DNA from: Burkholderiales bacterium
GTDB lineage: Bacteria > Pseudomonadota > Gammaproteobacteria > Burkholderiales > SG8-41
Direction: 5' to 3'
Length of the DNA stretch: 64,000 nt
Assembly (NCBI GenBank): GCA_022841375.1
Contig: JALHRQ010000002.1
Span: 1-64,000, forward strand
Part shown: positions 4,186-51,016 of the stretch, one piece after another
How positions within the stretch are numbered: position 1 is the stretch's first letter
Layout: each line of letters begins with the position of its first letter
Made by a program: the position numbers and the translations under genes
The notes under the pieces: model-generated
Told to the model about the DNA's origin: nothing
Database searches by the model: none
What the model saw: the letters and a program-made list of their open reading frames with translations, nothing else

Positions 4186-4437
4186 CTAGCGGCGATCTGC
4201 GCTTGCGCCCGCTGCTGACTCCAGCGCCGTCACCTGTTTTTCGAGCTCCGCCAGACGTGCGCGGGTTCGCGCCAGCACTTCGCGCTGGATGTCGAATTCC
4301 TCACGGCTGACCAGATCCAGCCGTGCAAACGCGGGGCCGAGCATCGCCCGCAGATTTCGTTCCAGATCGGCAGCCGGACTTTGCGCCATTACCGATTTCA
4401 GTTTTTCATTGATCTCGTCAAACAGATTTTGGTTCAT
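4186..4437 (-). CDS. ubiK: UbiK family (YqiC/BMFP) ubiquinone biosynthesis accessory factor
   Basis: An 83-residue protein beginning MNQNLFDEINEKL, with an amphipathic N-terminal half and a C-terminal coiled coil of Arg/Glu/Leu heptads (about residues 40-75). UbiK binds UbiJ and lipids and supports the soluble ubiquinone synthesis complex. The start at 4437 is chosen because AGGAGG stands just upstream on this strand. A longer frame reaching 4506 has no support. It lies 77 bp upstream of comM in the same direction, a common pairing in proteobacteria. Confidence 0.88.
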   Translation of the reverse strand: MNQNLFDEINEKLKSVMAQSPAADLERNLRAMLGPAFARLDLVSREEFDIQREVLARTRARLAELEKQVTALESAAGASADRR

Positions 4438-4525
4438 GACGCCTCCTTGATCCGCGCAGTGTAGCAATACCTTGACGCCCCCCCCCGCCCGGGGCTGCTG
4501 CCTCATGCTGGGCGATTACGCCAGT

Positions 4526-4567
4526 CAATGGTGCGGTAATCCTTAAAATTGCACCAAAATAGTGCGA
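4526..4567 (+). promoter_or_regulatory. Putative NtrC binding sites
   Basis: TGCACC and GTGC half-sites at 4550-4565 form a near match to the NtrC consensus TGCACC-N4/5-GGTGCA. A further half-site, GGTGCG, lies at 4530-4535. They stand about 65-100 bp upstream of the -24/-12 element, a normal distance for an enhancer-binding activator. Confidence 0.6.
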
Positions 4568-4627
4568 CCCGTTGTTATGCGTTCAGCCGATAGATTGTAA
4601 CTTTATGTTTTTAAAGGAAAAATATTC

Positions 4628-4642
4628 TGGCATGGTACCTGC
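4628..4642 (+). promoter_or_regulatory. Sigma-54 promoter for the porin-glnK-amtB operon
   Basis: TGGCAT with GG at 4629-4630 and GC at 4641-4642 has the exact 10-nt GG-GC spacing of a -24/-12 promoter. Transcription would begin near 4653, about 45 nt before the porin start. Together with the NtrC-like sites it predicts induction under nitrogen limitation. Confidence 0.65.
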
Positions 4643-4696
4643 TCTAGGTAGCCCGCAGTCTTATTGCATATGTGCCAACACTGAAAAGGGAAAATC

Positions 4697-5527
4697 ATGT
4701 TTAAGAAAACCATTATTGCCGGTCTTGTCGCCGGTGCGTTCACCCCCTCTCTTGCTTTTGCCCAGGCCGCTGCGGCCCCGACCCCGGAGCACACGCTGAC
4801 CGGCAACGTTGGCGTTTACAGCCAGTACATTTTCCGCGGCCTGACCCAAACCAATAAGGACCCGGCCCTGCAAGGCGGTTTTGATTACAGCCACTCCAGC
4901 GGCTTCTACGCTGGCACCTGGATGTCGAACATCAGTTGGCTTACCGATTCGCCGGGCGTCACCGGTTACAACAGCAGCAGCCTGGAAATGGACTTCTATG
5001 GCGGCTACAAAGGCACTATTTCCGGCGACTTCGGCTTCGACATTGGTCTGCTCCAGTATTACTACCCGGGTACCCACAGCTCGGTGGTCAATCCAGGCAC
5101 TTTCAAGGCTGATACGCTTGAACTCTACGGCGCAGTAACCTGGAAATGGCTGTCCGCCAAGTATTCGCACAGCATCAACGACGAAACCTTCGGTGTGACT
5201 AACAGCGACGGCACCTATTACTTTGACCTGACCGCCAACTACCCGGTGACCGACAAGCTCACGCTGATGGCCCACTACGGTATCCAGAAGTTCAAGGGCA
5301 CCAGCAACCTCTGTGGCGCCAACACCTCGAACGACCTGTGCGCATCCTATGACGACTGGAAAATCGGTGCCTCCTACGCGCTGCCGCAAAGCTTCACCAT
5401 CGGTGGCTTTTTCACCGGGACCGACATGTCTAACGCCCAGAAAGTTAACTACACCAACGCAAATAACGCTGGTGCACGCTTCCTCGGCAAGGACACGTTC
5501 ACCGTCTATCTGTCGAAAACCTTCTGA
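4697..5527 (+). CDS. TorF family putative outer-membrane porin
   Basis: The 276-residue protein has a clear signal peptide (MFKKTII... ending AFA|QA) and a body of amphipathic beta strands rich in Tyr, Trp, Gly and Ser, closing with a C-terminal phenylalanine (VYLSKTF), as outer-membrane barrel proteins do. The opening VGVYSQYIFRGLTQT is the hallmark of the Gcw_chp/TorF family. Placed directly ahead of glnK and amtB behind a nitrogen-type promoter, it probably admits small nitrogenous solutes, but the substrate is not known. AAAGGGAAAA precedes the ATG. Confidence 0.87.
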   Translation: MFKKTIIAGLVAGAFTPSLAFAQAAAAPTPEHTLTGNVGVYSQYIFRGLTQTNKDPALQGGFDYSHSSGFYAGTWMSNISWLTDSPGVTGYNSSSLEMDFYGGYKGTISGDFGFDIGLLQYYYPGTHSSVVNPGTFKADTLELYGAVTWKWLSAKYSHSINDETFGVTNSDGTYYFDLTANYPVTDKLTLMAHYGIQKFKGTSNLCGANTSNDLCASYDDWKIGASYALPQSFTIGGFFTGTDMSNAQKVNYTNANNAGARFLGKDTFTVYLSKTF

Positions 5528-41422: not shown

Positions 41423-42589
41423 ATGAGCAATTTCCTGTTCACTTCCGAATCGGTTTCCGAAGGTCATCCCGACAAAATCGCCGACCAGATCTCTGATGCG
41501 GTGCTTGATGCCATCCTCGCCCAGGATAAAAACGGCCGCGTCGCCGCTGAAACGCTGACGCACACCGGACTCGTCGTACTCGCCGGCCAGGTCACGACCA
41601 GCGCCCGCGTCGATTACGCGAAGGTGGCGCGCAAAATCATCAAGCAGATCGGTTACGACGATTCCGAAATCGGCTTTGACTACAAGAGCTGCGGCGTCAT
41701 GGTGTGTTACGACGAACAGTCGCCCGACATCGCGCAAGGTGTGGACGAAGGCAAGGGCCTCGACCTCGACCAGGGCGCCGGCGACCAAGGCCTGATGTTC
41801 GGTTTCGCCTGCGACGAAACGCCGCAGCTGATGCCGATGCCGATCTACTATGCGCATCGCCTGATGGAGCGTCACGCCGAGTTGCGCCGCGATGGCCGTC
41901 TGCCGTGGGCGCGCCCCGATGCGAAATCGCAAGTGTCCGTGCGCTACGTCGACGGCAAGCCGCATCACATCGACACGGTGGTGATTTCGACCCAGCATCG
42001 GGAAGACATTTCGCACGAACCGCTCACCGAGTCCGTGATCGAGCAGATCGTCAAGCCCGTGCTGCCGAAAAACATGGTTACCAAGGACACCAAGTACCTG
42101 ATAAACCCGACCGGCCGCTTCGTCATCGGCGGCCCGCAAGGCGACACCGGCCTCACCGGCCGCAAGATCATCGTCGACACCTACGGCGGTTACTCGCGTC
42201 ACGGCGGAGGCGCATTTTCGGGCAAGGATCCTTCGAAGGTTGACCGCTCGGCCGCTTATGCCGCGCGTTACGTGGCGAAAAACATCGTCGCCGCCGGCCT
42301 TGCGACCAAGTGCGAAATCCAGGTGGCTTACGCCATCGGCGTGGCACGTCCGGTCAGCGTGCTGGTCGATACTTTCGGCACCGGAAAAATTTCGGACGAG
42401 AAAATCGCAGCGCTGGTCGAGAAACACTTCGACTTGCGGCCGAAAGGCATCATCCAGTCGCTCAACTTGCTGCGCCCGATCTACACCAAGACCGCAGCTC
42501 ACGGCCATTTCGGCCGCGATGAGCCGGAATTCACCTGGGAGCACACCGACAAAGCGGCTGCATTGAAGGCGGATGCGGGTATCAAATAA
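41423..42589 (+). CDS. metK: S-adenosylmethionine synthetase
   Basis: A 388-residue enzyme making SAM from methionine and ATP. Signatures are [17 protein letters not shown] at the start, [15 protein letters not shown] near residue 117 and [19 protein letters not shown] near 258, the phosphate-binding block. It is monocistronic, with its own promoter and terminator. With metX, ahcY and metF it makes this window rich in methionine-cycle genes. Confidence 0.97.
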
Positions 42590-42802: not shown

Positions 42803-43102
42803 ATGTTCGTCGCGTTAAGCCGTTTTACGATCGCCAACGATATGGCAGACGAAGTGCGGACTGCTTTCCGCAACCGCCCGCATCTTGTTGATGGCGCGCC
42901 GGGATTTGTCGGCATGGAAGTGATGAGTCCGCTGGGCCATCCCGCGGAGGTCTGGCTGCTTACCCGGTGGAACGATGAGCAAAGCTACCGCAACTGGCAC
43001 CGGGGCCACGAATACCACGAGTCCCACAAAGGCATTCCCAAGGGGCTCAAGCTGGTGCCGGGCAGCGCGGCGGTGCAGCTTTTTGATGTGTTCTCGGAAT
43101 AG
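42803..43102 (+). CDS. ABM-domain (antibiotic biosynthesis monooxygenase-like) protein
   Basis: A 99-residue ferredoxin-like barrel protein with FVALSRFTIAND at the start, DGAPGFVGMEVMSP near residue 30 and EVWLLTRWNDEQSYRNWHRGHEY near 49. The domain occurs in small monooxygenases and in HmoA/IsdG-type haem-degrading enzymes; the W-x3-H pair near residue 65 is compatible with either. It leads a three-gene unit, with the B12-binding gene 11 bp downstream. The substrate is unknown. Confidence 0.8.
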   Translation: MFVALSRFTIANDMADEVRTAFRNRPHLVDGAPGFVGMEVMSPLGHPAEVWLLTRWNDEQSYRNWHRGHEYHESHKGIPKGLKLVPGSAAVQLFDVFSE

Positions 43103-43113
43103 GGCAATCGCAG

Positions 43114-44190
43114 ATGACGATTGATGCCGGACTGTCGACACTGAATGCCAAGGGTCTGCAGCAGTTTAAAGCGCTGCAGGGGGATGCGGTAAGCGCGGTA
43201 ACTGAACGCTTTTACGCCACTCACGGATCGGCGTATGCGGAGTTCGGCGAGCGCGGGCGTGAAGCCTGCCGCGAAGATCTGGCCTTTCATCTTGAATTTC
43301 TGCGTCCGGTTCTCGAGTTCGGCCTGCTGCAACCCATGGTGGATTACCTGTGCTGGTTGAACGGCGTGCTCGTCGCACGATCGATTCCATCCGCTCACCT
43401 CGGACTTTCGCTGGACTGGCTGGCGGAATTCTTCGAGGGCCATATGGATGCGCCGGATGGCGCAGTGGTTGCCGCAGCTTTACATGCAGCGCGGGATCAG
43501 TTTCTCGCGACAGGCCATGCGCCGGTAAAACCGCTTGTTGCCCCCTCTGCGTGGTCTGAAGCGACGATCTTCGAAACCGCTCTGCTCGCGGGCAGTCAGC
43601 GCGAAGCGCTGGCAGTGGTCAACCGCTGCATTGACGGCGGCCACAGCCTCGTCGAGGTTGAAATGCATGTTATCCAGCCGGCGCTTTATCAGATCGGCGA
43701 AAAATGGCAGGCCAACCAGGTGACGGTGGCGCAGGAACACATGGCGACAGCCATCGTACAGTCGGTGATGACAGTGGGACTGTTGCGCTCCCCGCCGCCG
43801 GCGCTGCTCAACAAACGTGCGCTGCTGGCCTGCGTCGAGGGCAACAACCACGCCATCGGCCTGCGTATGGTGGCCGATGCATTTCAGCTCGGCGGCTGGG
43901 ATGTACAGTACCTCGGCGCCAATGTGCCGACTCCGGCGCTGGTCGCGCAGGCTGCACAGTGGAAGCCGGATCTCGTCGGGCTGTCGGTGTCTTTCCCGCA
44001 GCAATTGCGGGTGGTCAGGATTATCGTCGGTCAGCTGATTGAGCGCCTTGGCAGCACAAGGCCGGCAGTGATCATCGGCGGACTGGCCATCAACCGTTTC
44101 AACCAGCTGGCCGGTGTAGTCGGTGCCGACGCGTGCATGGCAGACGCCCAGGCTGCGGTGGCCTCTGCCAGCAACATGGTCAAGCACTAG
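43114..44190 (+). CDS. B12-binding sensor protein with CarH-type Wx9EH signature
   Basis: A 358-residue protein in three parts: a helical N-terminal domain (1-110) that I do not recognise, a four-helix B12-capping domain (about 145-230) and a Rossmann B12-binding domain (235-358). The capping domain has Trp198 and Glu208-His209, the Wx9EH motif that contacts the upper face of adenosylcobalamin in CarH photoreceptors. His246 in EGNNHAIGLRM is the lower-ligand His, with Asn in place of the usual Asp or Glu two residues before it. There is no MerR DNA-binding domain. The diguanylate cyclase gene next to it suggests that it signals through c-di-GMP. Confidence 0.85.
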   Translation: MTIDAGLSTLNAKGLQQFKALQGDAVSAVTERFYATHGSAYAEFGERGREACREDLAFHLEFLRPVLEFGLLQPMVDYLCWLNGVLVARSIPSAHLGLSLDWLAEFFEGHMDAPDGAVVAAALHAARDQFLATGHAPVKPLVAPSAWSEATIFETALLAGSQREALAVVNRCIDGGHSLVEVEMHVIQPALYQIGEKWQANQVTVAQEHMATAIVQSVMTVGLLRSPPPALLNKRALLACVEGNNHAIGLRMVADAFQLGGWDVQYLGANVPTPALVAQAAQWKPDLVGLSVSFPQQLRVVRIIVGQLIERLGSTRPAVIIGGLAINRFNQLAGVVGADACMADAQAAVASASNMVKH

Positions 44191-44198
44191 CCGGACCC

Positions 44199-45122
44199 GT
44201 GGCCTGGTTTAATCCGGAACTGGAACCATTACTGGCTGTTGCTGCAGCCACGCTGGATGGAGACGGCCTCCTGATCGAGGCTAATGCGGGGTTCCTCCGG
44301 TTGATCCATGCCGAGGGACAACAGCCGATCGGTCAGTCCGTAAGCCGTTTTTTCCGACAGCCTGATTTTTCCGCCCTCGCCGGCATGCCTGCTGGCAACG
44401 ATGGGGAAATCCATCGCGGGCTGCTGACCATCGGCGATTTCATGGGACAGACACGCACTGTTCACGCCCGCATCTGGCGCACCAACGGACAACTGCGCGT
44501 GCTGGCGGAGCACGACATCGCGGAGCTGGAACGACTCTACGCCACCGTGCTCGAACTCAACCGCGATTACGCCAACACCCAGCTCGAACTGGCGCAGACC
44601 AACCTCAAGCTGCAACAGCGCGAGGCGCAGATCACCGCCATTTCGCTGACGGATCCGCTGACTGGGGTGGGCAATCGCCGCCTGCTGGAAGAATCACTGG
44701 CAAAGGAGATCAGCCGCGTCGAACGTGGGGGAGGAACATTGTGCACGGTGATGGCTGACCTTGACCATTTCAAAAACATCAATGACCGCTACGGGCACGA
44801 CTCCGGGGACCAGGTGCTGATGGCCTTTGGGGCCCTGCTGCGGCAGCACACGCGGCCGACCGACATCGTGACCCGATACGGCGGTGAGGAGTTTGTCCTG
44901 CTGTTGCCGCACACCGACCTTGAGCATGCACTGGCCGCGGCAGAGCGCATCCGGACAGCCCTCGCGGGCTGCCTTATTGAGCCCTTGCGCAATCCGGTTA
45001 CCGCGAGCTTCGGCGTGGCTGAAATAGCGTCAGGTGAACAGGGCGATGCGCTGCTGCGGCGTGCCGATATGGCCCTTTATCAGGCCAAGCATTCGGGACG
45101 CAACCGGGTTGTTGCGGGCTAG
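44199..45122 (+). CDS. Diguanylate cyclase with PAS-like sensor
   Basis: A 307-residue protein: a PAS-like domain (about 8-105), a coiled coil (108-145) and a GGDEF domain. The active-site GGEEF is at 228-232, and Arg219 with Asp222 form the inhibitory RxxD site exactly five residues before it. It should make c-di-GMP with product inhibition. GTG 44199 is the likely start, eight bases after the B12 gene stop, so the two are coupled. No transmembrane helix is seen, so it is cytosolic. Confidence 0.92.
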   Translation: MAWFNPELEPLLAVAAATLDGDGLLIEANAGFLRLIHAEGQQPIGQSVSRFFRQPDFSALAGMPAGNDGEIHRGLLTIGDFMGQTRTVHARIWRTNGQLRVLAEHDIAELERLYATVLELNRDYANTQLELAQTNLKLQQREAQITAISLTDPLTGVGNRRLLEESLAKEISRVERGGGTLCTVMADLDHFKNINDRYGHDSGDQVLMAFGALLRQHTRPTDIVTRYGGEEFVLLLPHTDLEHALAAAERIRTALAGCLIEPLRNPVTASFGVAEIASGEQGDALLRRADMALYQAKHSGRNRVVAG

Positions 45123-45203: not shown

Positions 45204-45210
45204 CCGCCCC

Positions 45211-45290
45211 GCTGAGGAGCGTTGCGACCGATGGGGTTTTAGTTCTTTACCCATCATCGGCCAGGCTCAGCAAAGATATCAACGGCGCTC
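45211..45290 (+). ncRNA. SAH riboswitch, first of a tandem pair
   Basis: GCTGAG (45211-45216) pairs with CTCAGC (45266-45271). The core contains GAGCGTTGCGACC and GGCCAGGCTCAG, both typical of S-adenosylhomocysteine riboswitches. The distal AACGGCGCTC (45281-45290) pairs back with GAGCGTT as the pseudoknot. SAH binding should raise ahcY expression. Confidence 0.92.
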
Positions 45291-45320
45291 GCACCGGAAA
45301 CGGTGCGGGCGCTTTGCTTT
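45291..45320 (+). terminator. Hairpin after the first SAH aptamer, possible terminator
   Basis: GCACCG and CGGTGC (45291-45306) pair around a GAAA tetraloop, followed by GGGCGCTTTGCTTTT. The T-rich tail is interrupted, so termination is possible but uncertain; it may be the expression platform of aptamer 1. Confidence 0.45.
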
Positions 45321-45368
45321 TGTAACACCGAAAACGTAATACCGAAAACGCATCAATTAAATCGTGCT

Positions 45369-45453
45369 CCCGAGGGGCGCTGCGACCGGGCGGGTCGAAG
45401 ATTTAACCCGCACACCGGCCAGGCTCGGGCGGCATGCTGGAAACGGCGCCCGA
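45369..45453 (+). ncRNA. SAH riboswitch, second of a tandem pair
   Basis: CCCGAG (45369-45374) pairs with CTCGGG (45424-45429). The core has GGGCGCTGCGACC and GGCCAGGCTCGGG, and the pseudoknot strand AACGGCGCCC lies at 45442-45451. It ends 21 nt before the ahcY ATG, with AGGAG between, so it can control ribosome access. Confidence 0.92.
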
Positions 45454-45474
45454 CCATTCATTCAGGAGCTAGAC

Positions 45475-46878
45475 ATGAACGCCAAATCCGCCGACTACAA
45501 AGTCGCCGATATCAACCTCGCCGACTTCGGTCGCAAGGAAATCGCCATTGCCGAGACCGAAATGCCCGGCCTGATGGCGATCCGCGAAGAACACAAAGGC
45601 AAGAAGCCGCTCAAGGGCGCGCGCATTGCCGGCTCTCTGCACATGACCATCCAGACCGCCGTGCTGATCGAAACGCTGGCCGATCTGGGCGCCGACATCC
45701 GCTGGGCGTCGTGCAATATTTTCTCGACTCAGGACCACGCTGCCGCGGCCATCGCCGCCAGCGGCATCCCCGTGTTCGCCTACAAGGGTGAAACGCTGGA
45801 AGACTACTGGGATTACACCCATCGCATTCTCGAATGGTCGGATGGCGGCACGCCGAACATGATCCTCGACGACGGCGGCGACGCCACGCTGCTGGTGACG
45901 CTGGGCGCACAACACGAGCGCAACAAGACGCAACCGCCGGAAGGCAGCAACGAAGAAGAGGTGGTGCTGTTCGCAGCGATGCGCAAGACGCTGAAGGAAA
46001 AGCCCGGTTTTTACTCGAACATCGAGAAAAACATCAAAGGCGTTACTGAAGAAACGACGACCGGTGTGCACCGCCTGTATCAGATGGAAAAAGAAGGCCG
46101 CCTGCCGTTCCCGGCGATCAACGTCAATGACTCGGTGACCAAATCCAAGTTCGACAACCTCTACGGCTGCCGCGAATCGCTGGTCGACGCCATCAAGCGC
46201 GCCACCGACGTGATGATCGCCGGCAAGGTCGCGCTGGTCTGCGGTTTCGGCGACGTCGGCAAGGGCAGCGCACAGGCGCTGCGTGCGCTCTCGGCTCAGG
46301 TCTGGGTCACCGAAGTCGATCCGATCTGCGCACTGCAGGCAGCGATGGAAGGTTTCCGCGTCGTGACCATGGACTACGCCGCCGACAAGGCCGACATTTT
46401 TGTCACCGCCACCGGCAATCTGGGCGTGATCAACCACGACCACATGAAGCGGATGAAGAACAACGCCATCGTCTGCAACATCGGCCACTTCGATTCGGAA
46501 ATCGAAATCGCCGCGCTGAAACAATATAAGTGGGAAAACATCAAGCCGCAGGTCGACCATGTGATTTTCCCCGACGGCAAACGCCTGATCATCCTCGCCG
46601 AAGGCCGGCTGGTGAACCTCGGCTGCGGCACCGGACACCCGTCATTCGTAATGTCGAGTTCGTTCACCAACCAGACGCTGGCACAGCTCGAGCTGTACAC
46701 CCAGGGCGGCAAGTACCAGAACAAGGTTTACGTGCTGCCGAAACACCTGGATGAGAAAGTCGCGCGCCTGCATCTGAAGAAACTCGGCGTTGACCTGACC
46801 GTACTTAGCGAGAAGCAGTGCGACTACCTGCAGATGCCGGTTGAAGGTCCGTACAAGGCAGATCACTACCGGTATTGA
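45475..46878 (+). CDS. ahcY: Adenosylhomocysteinase (SAH hydrolase)
   Basis: A 467-residue NAD-dependent enzyme splitting SAH into adenosine and homocysteine. Signatures are [16 protein letters not shown] near residue 80, the NAD loop [16 protein letters not shown] near 256 and the C-terminal KADHYRY that closes the active site. ATG 45475 has AGGAG at the right distance. A longer open frame upstream runs through the riboswitch and is not coding. Two SAH aptamers in its leader indicate substrate-level induction. Confidence 0.97.
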
Positions 46879-48166: not shown

Positions 48167-51016
48167 GTGCGCGCCCTGATTCAGGGTTCCCGACCTTTTC
48201 CCATGCAGATGCTCCACTCAATCACCTCCCGGCAACGCTTCCCTCCACTACTCGTGGCGGCCGTCGTTTTTCTGCTCGCAGCCGTTGTTTCGGCTGGCGC
48301 GATCTGGCGCATTGCGCAGGCTGACAGCAGGGCCTTGCGTGAGCGCGCTGCGTTCGAGGCGACCATCCATGCGCACGCTCTCGAGCGCAGCATCGAGCGC
48401 AGCCTGTCCGCCACCTATGCCGTGGCCGCCCTGATTCGTGAAGGCAACGGTGCAATCCGCAATTTCGATACCGTCGCCCGCCAGATGCTGCCACTCTATC
48501 CCGGTGCGACTTCGCTGCAATTGGCGCCCCGCGGCATAGTCCAGTACATCGTGCCGCTGGCGGGCAACGAAAAGGCCATCGGCCACAACCTGTTGCAGGA
48601 TCCGGCGCGCACGAAAGCGGCCATTGTCGCCCGTGACACCGGCAAGCTGACCCTCGATGGTCCCTTCCCTCTGCTGCAGGGCGGGATGGGCGCGGTTGGA
48701 CGCCTGCCGGTCTTTCTTGACAGCGCCGGTGGCCCAACCTTCTGGGGATTCACCAGCGTCGTGATCCGCTTCCCCGACGTGATTGAGACGGCCCGCTTTG
48801 TCGGGCTGGCGGAGTTGGGCCTTGCCTACCAGCTCTGGCGCACCGATCCAGTCACCGGACAAAGAGCGATCATCGCCGCGTCATCGTCCGCCGCCATGAT
48901 CGACCCTGTCCAGAAAATCATCGCGGTACCGAACGCGGTCTGGACCCTGAGCGTCGTGCCCGTCAATGGCTGGCGCCAGGATCCTCTCAAATTTCTGTTC
49001 GAAGCCGCACTGGGCTTGTTCCTCAGCGCACTGCTGGGCTACGCCGCGAAACTGCTGATCGAACTGAGAGCCCACAAGCGGGAGCTGGAAGCGCGGGTCG
49101 AGCGGCGCACCGCCGAGGTCAAGGCGCGCGAGACCGACCTGAACCGCGCGCAATCGATCGCGCGGGTCGGCAGCTGGGTCGTGGACCTCCCCGGGCACAA
49201 GGTCCAGTGGTCGGCGGAGGCCAGTCGCCTCCTGGGAGGAAGTACCGGTGTGCCGATTGATCGCGACGCCTTCCTGGAGCGTGTCCACCCGGAGGACCGC
49301 GCCGCCGTGGACAGGGCCTGGCAGGAAACCCTCGCGGGCAAACCCCTGGATTTAGAGCATCGCGTCGGGGTCGGCACGGAAAAAACCCGCTGGGTGCACA
49401 CACGGGCGGATCCGGAATTTGCTGCAGACGGAACGCTGCGGCGTATTGTCGGCACCGTCCAGGACATCTCCGAGCGCAAGCACGCCGAAACTGCGCGCCG
49501 CGACAGGCTCGACCGGGTCCAGCGGCAGATGGAAGCAGTCAACAGGATCTCCGCATCCGATGCGCTGCTGGCGGGCGACGTCGAGCGCCTTGCACGCGAG
49601 ATCACGGCAGAAACCGCCCGCGTCACGGGCGTCGAACGCGCCAACGTGTGGCTGTTCAACGAAGACGAGACCGAGTTGCACTGCATCGACCTCTACGAAG
49701 CCACGCCGGGGATGCATACCGCGGGTGCAATACTCCGCCAGGAGCATTTCGAAAACGAATTCCGCGCCCTGAAAAACGCCCGCTACATAAACGCCGATGA
49801 CCCGCTGACAGACCCGCGGACGGCGGGCTACATCGAGGATTACCTGAAACCCCTGCGCATCTCCGCCATGCTCGACACAGTGGTCCAGATCTCCGGCAAG
49901 CATCTCGGGCTGCTCTGCTTCGAGCACGTGGACCGTCCCCACCACTGGGAACAGGACGAAATCACCTTTGCCTGCCAGCTTGCCGACAAGATCGGCCTCG
50001 CCATCACGATCCGCACGCGCCTGCTGGCACAGGCGGAGCTGGCGGAAAGCGAGCGGCACTTCCGCGCCATGGTCGAGCAATCCGTCAGCGGCTTCTACCT
50101 CATCCAGGACAACAAGTTCGTTTATGTCAATGCGCGCTTCGCCGAGATATTCCGTTACGCCTCCCCCGGTGAAATCACCGGCAAGAGCCCGCTAGACCTG
50201 ACGGCGACGAAGGACCGTGCGACTGTGGCCGAGAATATCCGGCGCCAGTTTGCCGGCGAAGTGAAAAGCATCGGTTATTCATTTATCGGCCTGCGCAAGG
50301 ACGGCAGCGAGATCGAGATCGGCATGCACGGCTCGTCCGCCAGCCACGAAGGTCGCCCCGCGATCATCGGCCTGCTGCAGGATATTTCCGAGCGCAAGCG
50401 CGCCGAGGACGAGATCCGGCACTACGCCTCGCAGCTGGAGCAGGCCATGCGCGGTACGATCGGCGTCATCAACGCGATCGGCGAGGTCCGCGACCCTTAC
50501 ACGCACGGCCACGAGCGTCGCGTCGGCGAAATTGCCGCAGCAATCGGAGCTGAAATGGGGCTCGATACGAACCGCGTCGAGGGCATCCGCATCGCCGGCT
50601 ATATGCACGACGTCGGCAAGATCGGCGTGCCCGCTGAAATCCTGTCCAAACCCAGCAAGCTCTCGAGACTCGAGTACGAGCTGGTGAAGAGCCACGCGGA
50701 GCGGGGTTACGAGATCCTGAAGAGCTTCGAGTTTCCGTGGCCGGTTGCCGACATCGCATGGCAGCATCACGAGCGGCTCGACGGCAGCGGCTATCCGCGC
50801 GGCCTGAAGGGCGACGCAATCCTGCTCGACGCCCGCATCCTCGCAATCGCCGACGTGGTGGAAGCAATGTCCTCACACCGCCCCTATCGTCCGGGGCTGG
50901 GCATCGAGCCGGCGCTTGCTGAAATCAGCAAGGGTGCCGGGACGCTATACGATCCGCAGGCCGTGGCGGCCTGCCTGCGGCTGTTCCACGACAAAGGCTA
51001 CCGATTGCCGGAATAA
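48167..51016 (+). CDS. HD-GYP c-di-GMP phosphodiesterase with CHASE, PAS and GAF sensors
   Basis: A 949-residue membrane sensor. Two transmembrane helices (about residues 27-50 and 288-306) bracket a periplasmic CHASE-like domain. Then come a coiled coil, a PAS/PAC domain (about 320-450, ending TVQDISERKHAE), a GAF domain (470-630), a second PAS/PAC domain (640-760, ending LLQDISERKRAE) and an HD-GYP domain. The active-site residues are intact: MHDVGKIGVP and HHERLDGSGYPRGL. It should break down c-di-GMP in response to an external ligand. GTG 48167 or ATG 48203 may be the start. It follows metF by 15 bp. Confidence 0.92.
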   Translation: MRALIQGSRPFPMQMLHSITSRQRFPPLLVAAVVFLLAAVVSAGAIWRIAQADSRALRERAAFEATIHAHALERSIERSLSATYAVAALIREGNGAIRNFDTVARQMLPLYPGATSLQLAPRGIVQYIVPLAGNEKAIGHNLLQDPARTKAAIVARDTGKLTLDGPFPLLQGGMGAVGRLPVFLDSAGGPTFWGFTSVVIRFPDVIETARFVGLAELGLAYQLWRTDPVTGQRAIIAASSSAAMIDPVQKIIAVPNAVWTLSVVPVNGWRQDPLKFLFEAALGLFLSALLGYAAKLLIELRAHKRELEARVERRTAEVKARETDLNRAQSIARVGSWVVDLPGHKVQWSAEASRLLGGSTGVPIDRDAFLERVHPEDRAAVDRAWQETLAGKPLDLEHRVGVGTEKTRWVHTRADPEFAADGTLRRIVGTVQDISERKHAETARRDRLDRVQRQMEAVNRISASDALLAGDVERLAREITAETARVTGVERANVWLFNEDETELHCIDLYEATPGMHTAGAILRQEHFENEFRALKNARYINADDPLTDPRTAGYIEDYLKPLRISAMLDTVVQISGKHLGLLCFEHVDRPHHWEQDEITFACQLADKIGLAITIRTRLLAQAELAESERHFRAMVEQSVSGFYLIQDNKFVYVNARFAEIFRYASPGEITGKSPLDLTATKDRATVAENIRRQFAGEVKSIGYSFIGLRKDGSEIEIGMHGSSASHEGRPAIIGLLQDISERKRAEDEIRHYASQLEQAMRGTIGVINAIGEVRDPYTHGHERRVGEIAAAIGAEMGLDTNRVEGIRIAGYMHDVGKIGVPAEILSKPSKLSRLEYELVKSHAERGYEILKSFEFPWPVADIAWQHHERLDGSGYPRGLKGDAILLDARILAIADVVEAMSSHRPYRPGLGIEPALAEISKGAGTLYDPQAVAACLRLFHDKGYRLPE

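Follow-up and report, generated by a model that had tools for sequence, protein, structure and literature searches.

The stretch of DNA considered here, 64,000 nucleotides from the start of contig JALHRQ010000002.1 of a Burkholderiales bacterium (the window), carries three closely spaced genes for an ABM-domain protein, a B12-binding receptor and a diguanylate cyclase, and these genes probably constitute a light-signalling cassette. As judged from its sequence, the receptor is photocobilin-type, with an N-terminal bilin-binding globin (photoglobin) domain in front of a light-type B12 domain. Its probable output enzyme is encoded by a separate gene, and some relatives have a histidine kinase in its place; the ABM protein appears to be a dedicated and hitherto undescribed partner of the receptor. 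All three genes are real and lie where the original prediction had placed them, but the receptor had been taken for a CarH-type protein with an unknown helical N-terminal domain, and this assignment had to be given up.

The receptor and its two halves

The identity of the N-terminal domain follows from three comparisons. A search of the PDB with the single sequence returned phycocyanin alpha chains alone (25 of 25 matches at E ≤ 10, the best at 0.005), and in the alignment Cys52 falls on the C, and Asp55 on the D, of the phycocyanin C-x-R-D motif. With a profile of 24 such domains, the C-terminal biliverdin domain of the photocobilin SasPcob was found at 2.1e-8 and AbPcob at 7.4e-8, followed by allophycocyanin at 3.8e-6 (best 60 of 110 matches, E ≤ 10). 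Alignment of the N-domains with four Streptomyces photocobilin C-domains by hhalign gave a probability of 97.9 and an E-value of 5.6e-13. A CarH-type receptor with an uncharacterised N-terminal domain is ruled out by the profile search and by hhalign.

The relatives used in these and the following comparisons come from 27 distinct loci (29 minus two duplicates), 25 of which have a globin-B12 receptor, so that this N-terminal domain does recur together with B12 domains in other genomes. As the window protein or its alignment served as query in collecting the loci, the set leans towards window-like receptors, and three same-genus genomes as well as two genomes of group f15 are not mutually independent. 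Four genomes that match only in the B12 part, at E ≤ 1e-30 (G382, G179, G476, G503), were left out, and from plasmids 9 of 30 matching records were taken, one of which (L088) was not used further. The N-domain alignment comprises 24 of the 27 loci, excluding L081 and L083, which have no globin, and L073, whose globin part is divergent; the receptors of L008 and L082 are broken.

The C-terminal half contains a B12-binding_2 and a B12-binding domain, whose Pfam matches, like those of the ABM and GGDEF domains, all exceed the family cut-off. The signature of light-responsive B12 domains, GxxW, EH, GxxH and GxxxP (PMC11796333), is complete in the receptor (Gly195-Trp198, Glu208-His209, Gly243-His246, Gly268-Pro272). 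These motifs are short, and GxxxP occurs three times in the receptor, yet they stand at aligned positions in comparison with relatives. The B12 photoreceptor-type domain of the original prediction is thereby upheld, and Trp198-x9-Glu208-His209 and His246 were found exactly as described, with Asn244 two residues before His246. The special meaning that had been attached to this Asn was not borne out, as Asn, Asp and Glu alternate at this position in the alignment of receptor relatives.

Sequence searches of the PDB with the entire receptor have SasPcob (8j2x/8j2w, 7e-23), CtMerR (8jbs, 1.8e-21) and AbPcob (8j2y, 3e-18) on top, with CarH at about 2e-8. The NCBIfam model of CarH scores 54.9 bits against a cut-off of 400, and the Pfam scan of the receptor found no helix-turn-helix family that could represent a MerR-type DNA-binding domain. 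A CarH-like bis-His light state is unlikely and not expected, since Gln199 follows Trp198, as Gln does in SasPcob. CtMerR (5e-10) and SasPcob (3.5e-9) also lead the Foldseek matches of the receptor model, a ranking that supports the B12 half and is on its own no proof of the globin half; whole-receptor matches, in which the photocobilins and CtMerR show a root-mean-square deviation of about 7-9 Angstrom, were kept out of the N-domain argument.

Two residues of the putative bilin pocket, Asp55 and Trp81, can be related to Asp270 and Trp296 of SasPcob, when it is considered that by our count the index of the SasPcob chain equals the published numbering minus five (the lower-ligand His at index 103 is His108). 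Cys52 is of a different kind. The attachment motif C-x-R-D of phycobiliproteins is present in altered form, C52-R-E-D55, in which Cys and Asp are kept and Arg is off its motif place. In the photocobilin study (PMC10979010), photocobilins are described as lacking a bilin-linking Cys and as carrying the B12 domain possibly at either end; photocobilins with an N-terminal globin as such are thus already known, and Cys52 appears to set this receptor apart from at least the two crystallised photocobilins. The correlation of Cys52 with the ABM gene is loose: 10 of the 13 ABM-linked receptors have the Cys, but so do, without a linked ABM, two Azospirillum receptors and those of Skermanella, L008, G244 and G371. 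A separate observation concerns G427, a genome of 2.8 Mb with three photoglobin-B12 paralogues (L070, L071, L072) that lack a Cys at position 52; alongside them neither an ABM nor a GGDEF or kinase open reading frame was seen, and the L071 copy is adjoined by what reads as a sigma-factor-like frame (4231-4788).

A linked ABM protein and exchangeable outputs

The first gene was correctly recognised as encoding an ABM-domain protein (PF03992, 52.6 bits with a cut-off of 23.1). In a first scan the receptor was found again at five loci with 61-82% identity; at four of these the ABM gene adjoins it, and all five continue with the N-terminal part of the third gene, a recurrence that argues against chance. 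Across the wider set, an ABM reading frame of one subfamily adjoins the receptor at 13 of 25 globin-B12 loci, upstream and on the same strand in 12 of the 13 and divergent in L066. At L069 (genome G307) the adjoining gene encodes a fusion of the ABM with a PAS domain, both above cut-off (ABM 58.9 bits, PAS_4 26.1 bits). The three-gene order is thus conserved beyond the window while the output domain is exchanged, and the lack of conservation named in the original prediction as a refutation was not observed.

The linkage is also seen from the side of the ABM protein. When the window ABM was searched as a single sequence in 18 genomes with the receptor or its B12 part, matches of 84-225 bits were obtained in 11, the window's own genome included, and all 11 adjoin a receptor gene; five other matches reach 25-37 bits, four of them lying elsewhere and one (G870) beside a B12-only gene, while three genomes gave no match. 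Of 339 sampled genomes of the class, 19 yield a match at E ≤ 1e-15, and with a subfamily model only four ABMs exceed 71 bits, all of them receptor-linked. This model includes the same four ABMs, so its score gap is not independent, and the single-protein search serves as control. The window genome has three PF03992 matches, two of them above cut-off. Furthermore, ABM and receptor distances are correlated (Mantel r 0.926, 0 of 5000 permutations, n = 12), also after removal of close relatives (r 0.771, 3 of 5000 permutations, n = 8); this test covers 12 of the 14 ABM-bearing loci, excluding L082 with its split receptor and L083 without globin. A link of ABM proteins to such receptors was not found in print in searches of open-licence PMC papers, although the photoglobin paper of 2022 may mention it. 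L083 (3068-5916) has a different ABM that keeps the IsdG-type Asn and lies beside a B12-only gene, and what reads as a histidine kinase is encoded further downstream; this locus is perhaps a globin-free cousin of the cassette.

The third protein is a diguanylate cyclase by its GGDEF domain and its GG[DE]EF signature, and it is predicted to synthesize cyclic di-GMP (c-di-GMP). Its GGEEF signature has an RxxD inhibitory site five residues upstream, and the PAS-GGDEF cyclase with intact sites of the original prediction is therefore retained. The N-terminal PAS match remains under the Pfam cut-off (17.5 versus 23.1), yet the structure model has a PAS-like fold followed by a helix of 43 residues, and the 50 Foldseek matches listed are, judged by their titles, PAS-fold proteins, with 3bwl, PpsR, FixL and PYP near the top and E-values from 2.1e-5. 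L006 and L007 carry the same PAS-like domain and helix (51-52% identity) on a histidine kinase instead of a GGDEF domain. Histidine kinases are also found at L065, L066 and L079 (Pfam), L039 (annotation), and L038 and L067 (by reading), and GGDEF domains at L041 and L077 (Pfam) and L004, L005, L008 and L076 (similarity), which indicates that the receptor is combined with interchangeable outputs. The PAS adaptor was recognised only in relatives of the window protein and in L069. As a similarity search for the third gene also draws unrelated kinases and cyclases, outputs were counted from other evidence. In the assemblies of L005 (at about 7518), L008 and L077 (6750-6840) the cyclase is broken, being split over two overlapping frames; the receptor is interrupted in L008, where the breaks lie at about 2372 and 3330, and in L082 (880-889). 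These breaks represent either decay or assembly errors.

The receptor is thus genetically coupled to a separate cyclase, as had been proposed, but such a layout is not without precedent. Stand-alone SasPcob and the isolated AbPcob domain altered the activity of a separately added diguanylate cyclase domain in vitro (PMC10979010), a finding that renders the split layout plausible and reduces the novelty first ascribed to it, and in Ilyobacter polytropus a related receptor overlaps a GGDEF gene. Several further arrangements were noted beside these. A B12-only receptor that bears the light signature is found in L081 (G057); accompanied by neither globin nor ABM, it overlaps a GGDEF gene 39% identical to the window cyclase. 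Three Streptomyces plasmids (L084, L085, L086) have photocobilin-like genes beside PP2C/SpoIIE-type phosphatases, with STAS genes too in L084 and L086, and these neighbours agree with partners proposed for SasPcob (PMC10979010). On a plasmid of Streptomyces sp. SGAir0924 (L087, 3953-7922), a photocobilin-like gene with a C-terminal globin lies just upstream of gas vesicle genes, an arrangement that suggests a possible light control of buoyancy proteins.

In the window, the cassette lies between metK (41423-42589) and ahcY (45475-46878), and the features of its three genes, which are separated by gaps of 11 nt (ABM to receptor) and 8 nt (receptor to cyclase), are compiled in Table 1. The G+C contents of the ABM, receptor and cyclase genes (0.597, 0.616 and 0.618) resemble those of metK (0.605), ahcY (0.592) and metF (0.634) and give no strong sign of recent foreign origin; third-position values are somewhat lower in the cassette (0.70-0.73) than in the flanking genes (0.77-0.80). 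Among viral contigs, a pattern scan yielded no relative. Two S-adenosylhomocysteine (SAH) riboswitch aptamers stand in tandem upstream of ahcY (45208-45297, 57.1 bits; 45366-45458, 51.5 bits; gathering cut-off 37), a tandem arrangement that seems unusual. About 3 kb downstream of the cyclase and on the same strand (48167-51016), a CHASE-PAS-GAF-PAS-HD protein (HD_5, HD-GYP-like) is encoded, which is a probable c-di-GMP phosphodiesterase.

Table 1. Features of the three-gene cassette, with positions in the window
Feature	Position	Strand	Basis
ABM-domain protein, 99 aa	42803-43102	+	PF03992; receptor-linked subfamily (Ser6, Arg25, His27, Trp56, Trp65, His75, PKGLKL motif); 13-homologue alignment; genome-wide search
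Photocobilin-type receptor, 358 aa	43114-44190	+	N-terminal photoglobin domain, B12-binding_2 and B12-binding
Photoglobin (bilin-binding globin) domain, residues 12-132	43147-43509	+	PDB profile search, hhalign, helices in model
Cys52	43267-43269	+	aligned with Cys of phycocyanin alpha C-x-R-D motif (here C-R-E-D); 16/24 rows
Asp55	43276-43278	+	equivalent of SasPcob Asp270 (biliverdin contact); 19/24 rows
Trp81	43354-43356	+	equivalent of SasPcob Trp296 (bilin ring D, corrin contact); 24/24 rows
B12-binding_2 helical bundle, residues 155-221	43576-43776	+	Pfam 56.1 bits; Gly195-x2-Trp198, Glu208-His209
B12-binding Rossmann domain, residues 235-350	43816-44163	+	Pfam 69.6 bits; Gly243-Asn244-x-His246 (lower ligand), Gly268-x3-Pro272
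PAS-coiled coil-GGDEF diguanylate cyclase, 307 aa, GTG start	44199-45122	+	Pfam, structure model, Foldseek
PAS-like adaptor domain, residues 1-105	44199-44513	+	model pLDDT 79.4; top Foldseek matches PAS domains
Long helix, probable coiled coil, residues 107-149	44517-44645	+	structure model
GGDEF domain	44646-45107	+	Pfam 160.5 bits; RPTD inhibitory site 44853-44864, GGEEF 44880-44894

Proposed mechanism and alternatives

By analogy with characterised relatives, we infer that the cassette senses light, binds a bilin and controls the cyclase as follows. The C-terminal half of the receptor would hold adenosylcobalamin, with His246 as lower ligand and Trp198 and Glu208-His209 around the adenosyl group, and the N-terminal globin probably binds a bilin with the help of Asp55 and Trp81. 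The dark state would be a dimer with adenosylcobalamin on His246, as in SasPcob and AbDPcob. As in SasPcob, the Co-C bond would then be broken by light, either green, taken up by B12, or red, captured by the bilin and relayed, whereupon the adenosyl group could depart, the Glu208-His209 helix move and the receptor dimer loosen. The altered receptor surface may act on the PAS domain and coiled coil of the separate cyclase and thus change c-di-GMP synthesis in one direction or the other; in some relatives a histidine kinase would take the place of the cyclase as target. The ABM protein probably handles a tetrapyrrole, by making, binding or delivering the bilin, or serves as a structural subunit.

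A number of observations speak against a light-signalling cassette of this kind. The AlphaFold model of the receptor, built from six sequences, is moderate (pLDDT 68, pTM 0.44). Neither a PF01126 haem oxygenase nor a PF10615 protein, a family that we take to comprise the HugZ-type enzymes, nor a phytochrome PHY domain was found in the window genome, so that the source of the bilin is not obvious. An adenosyltransferase of the CobA/CobO/BtuR family (PF02572) is present there, and the window genome can thus probably make adenosylcobalamin, but this family was found in only 8 of the 18 receptor genomes and not in the same-genus genomes G005 and G020, the search being limited to this one adenosyltransferase family. 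The full receptor is present in only 3 of 21 searched genomes of the genus, its own included, and its function must be dispensable. No ABM is linked at 12 of the 25 receptor loci (L008, L038, L039, L040, L041, L067, L068, L070, L071, L072, L073, L080), and 7 of these 12 have no GGDEF or kinase reading frame directly after the receptor. The lower-ligand motif E/D-x-H, reported in both characterised photocobilins (PMC10979010), is replaced by Asn244-Asn245-His246, and for this reason we speak of a photocobilin-type receptor; the later light signature requires GxxH alone. Finally, AbPcob binds biliverdin poorly despite its retained globin fold (PMC10979010), and a conserved fold therefore does not prove bilin occupancy.

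This last case would also fit a receptor that senses B12 status, that is the level of adenosylcobalamin, instead of light, with a globin that is empty or structural, since AbPcob shows that a globin can lose most of its bilin binding. The position between metK and ahcY, a methionine-cycle neighbourhood, points the same way, but the L006 and L007 cassettes sit elsewhere and the setting is thus not general. Since the full light signature, with the Trp198 and Glu208-His209 that enclose the adenosyl group, and the two bilin-pocket residues Asp55 and Trp81 are furthermore retained in the receptor, we consider a B12-status sensor unlikely. Bacterial genes are densely packed, and the three genes could for that reason be mere neighbours, with a receptor that does not control the cyclase. 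At 10 of the 13 ABM-linked loci, however, the receptor gene is followed, in the same orientation, by one for a GGDEF protein or a histidine kinase, two of the remaining three are contigs that end inside the next reading frame, and the third has a PAS domain fused to the upstream ABM. With a gene order that is kept while the output domain changes, mere neighbourhood is very improbable, and the light-signalling cassette remains the reading that we favour.

Within such a cassette, the role of the ABM protein is a question of its own. Its closest solved relatives are TT1380 from Thermus, named hypothetical, and then the haem-degrading HmoB, MhuD and IsdI/IsdG. In the alignment of 13 receptor-linked ABMs, which excludes L083, Trp65 and Arg25 are invariant and His75 is kept in 12, with Gln in L069, so that the positions of the haem-ruffling Trp and the haem-ligating His are preserved. 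A PF01126 haem oxygenase is missing from 17 of 18 receptor genomes and a PF10615 protein from all 18, a set that does not include the genomes of L006, L007, L008 and the plasmid hosts. G307, the only one with PF01126, is also the one whose ABM has Gln for His75 and the PAS fusion, a coincidence that is suggestive but limited to a single case. All this would agree with a haem-degrading enzyme that makes bilin for the neighbouring globin in place of a canonical haem oxygenase. The catalytic Asn of the IsdG family is, however, Ser in 13 of 13 (Ser6-Trp65-His75), whereas the characterised members are all reported to need Asn, Trp and His (PMC5557675; on this requirement also PMC6018153). A plain IsdG haem oxygenase is ruled out by this exchange, and by its triad the ABM protein is not one, yet it appears to keep much of the haem pocket; since the triad is present in 866 of 1,204 IsdG-family homologues surveyed (PMC5557675), other homologues lack it as well. 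The products of IsdG-type enzymes moreover differ from biliverdin (PMC6018153, PMC9393634), receptor genomes without a linked ABM also lack PF01126, the PAS fusion suggests a built-in and not a diffusible role, and some of the 18 genomes are incomplete (G999 70%, G894 82%). Bilin supply by the ABM is thus plausible but unproven, and we regard it as rather doubtful. The PAS fusion and the loss of the axial His in G307, the exchange of Asn for Ser, and the strict linkage and co-divergence with the receptor may instead indicate a non-catalytic structural or sensory subunit, which binds haem, bilin or another small ligand or only bridges receptor and adaptor. The pocket Trp, Arg and His are nearly invariant in unfused copies, which is more than a bridge needs; we regard such a subunit as uncertain, though somewhat likelier than bilin supply. 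A more specific proposal, unlikely as it stands, is that the ABM is a new Ser-type haem-derived bilin enzyme or loader for an N-globin photocobilin that holds its bilin covalently on Cys52. If true, the cassette would be a self-contained B12-bilin photoreceptor unit that makes its own chromophore and whose output can be exchanged between a cyclase and a kinase.

Significance and comparison with known systems

Photocobilins were described in 2024, the function of stand-alone ones was called less clear, and the main text makes no mention of a haem oxygenase (PMC10979010). The cassette unites the genes for a receptor, its probable output enzyme and a dedicated third protein, and this group recurs with the output swapped between cyclase and kinase. 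The three small genes form a compact set with which it can be tested whether ABM proteins serve bilin photoreceptors, whether a photocobilin can bind its bilin covalently in the manner of phycobiliproteins, and by what means a free receptor regulates an enzyme to which it is not fused. The cassette could also yield a split green/red light tool for the control of c-di-GMP or of a kinase.

With IsdG, MhuD and HmoB, the window ABM has in common the fold and the positions of the Trp and the axial His, but it has Ser for the catalytic Asn and a gene linked to a photoreceptor; its C-terminal PKGLKL motif is absent among the five PDB relatives whose alignments were listed. CarH and the receptor share the B12 light core with Trp-x9-Glu-His and the lower-ligand His, whereas the receptor has neither the MerR DNA-binding domain nor a His beside Trp for a bis-His light state. 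The photoglobin family of Schneider et al. 2022 is said to combine a globin-B12 hub with signal-transduction domains, as is the case in the window. In the BBAG-2 system (PMC10151467), a bilin-binding globin likewise goes together with a B12 protein and with enzymatic bilin production; its enzymes, however, are a canonical haem oxygenase and a pre-PcyA reductase, unlike the window ABM, its globin and B12 parts are separate proteins, and BBAG-2 lacks the CXRD motif.

The closest systems are the photocobilins SasPcob (8J2W/8J2X) and AbDPcob (8J2Y), which like the receptor consist of a B12 domain with the light signature and a bilin-binding globin (PMC10979010). The globin is N-terminal in the receptor and C-terminal in these two, and the receptor has a Cys at the phycobiliprotein attachment site, which they lack, as well as Asn-x-His in place of their E/D-x-H. 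The window cyclase is encoded by a separate gene with a PAS adaptor, unlike in the crystallised systems, and the linked ABM gene is a further difference. SasPcob and the receptor nevertheless share the Gln after Trp and the equivalents of Asp270 and Trp296, and photocobilins and the window cassette alike are coupled to a diguanylate cyclase (PMC10979010).

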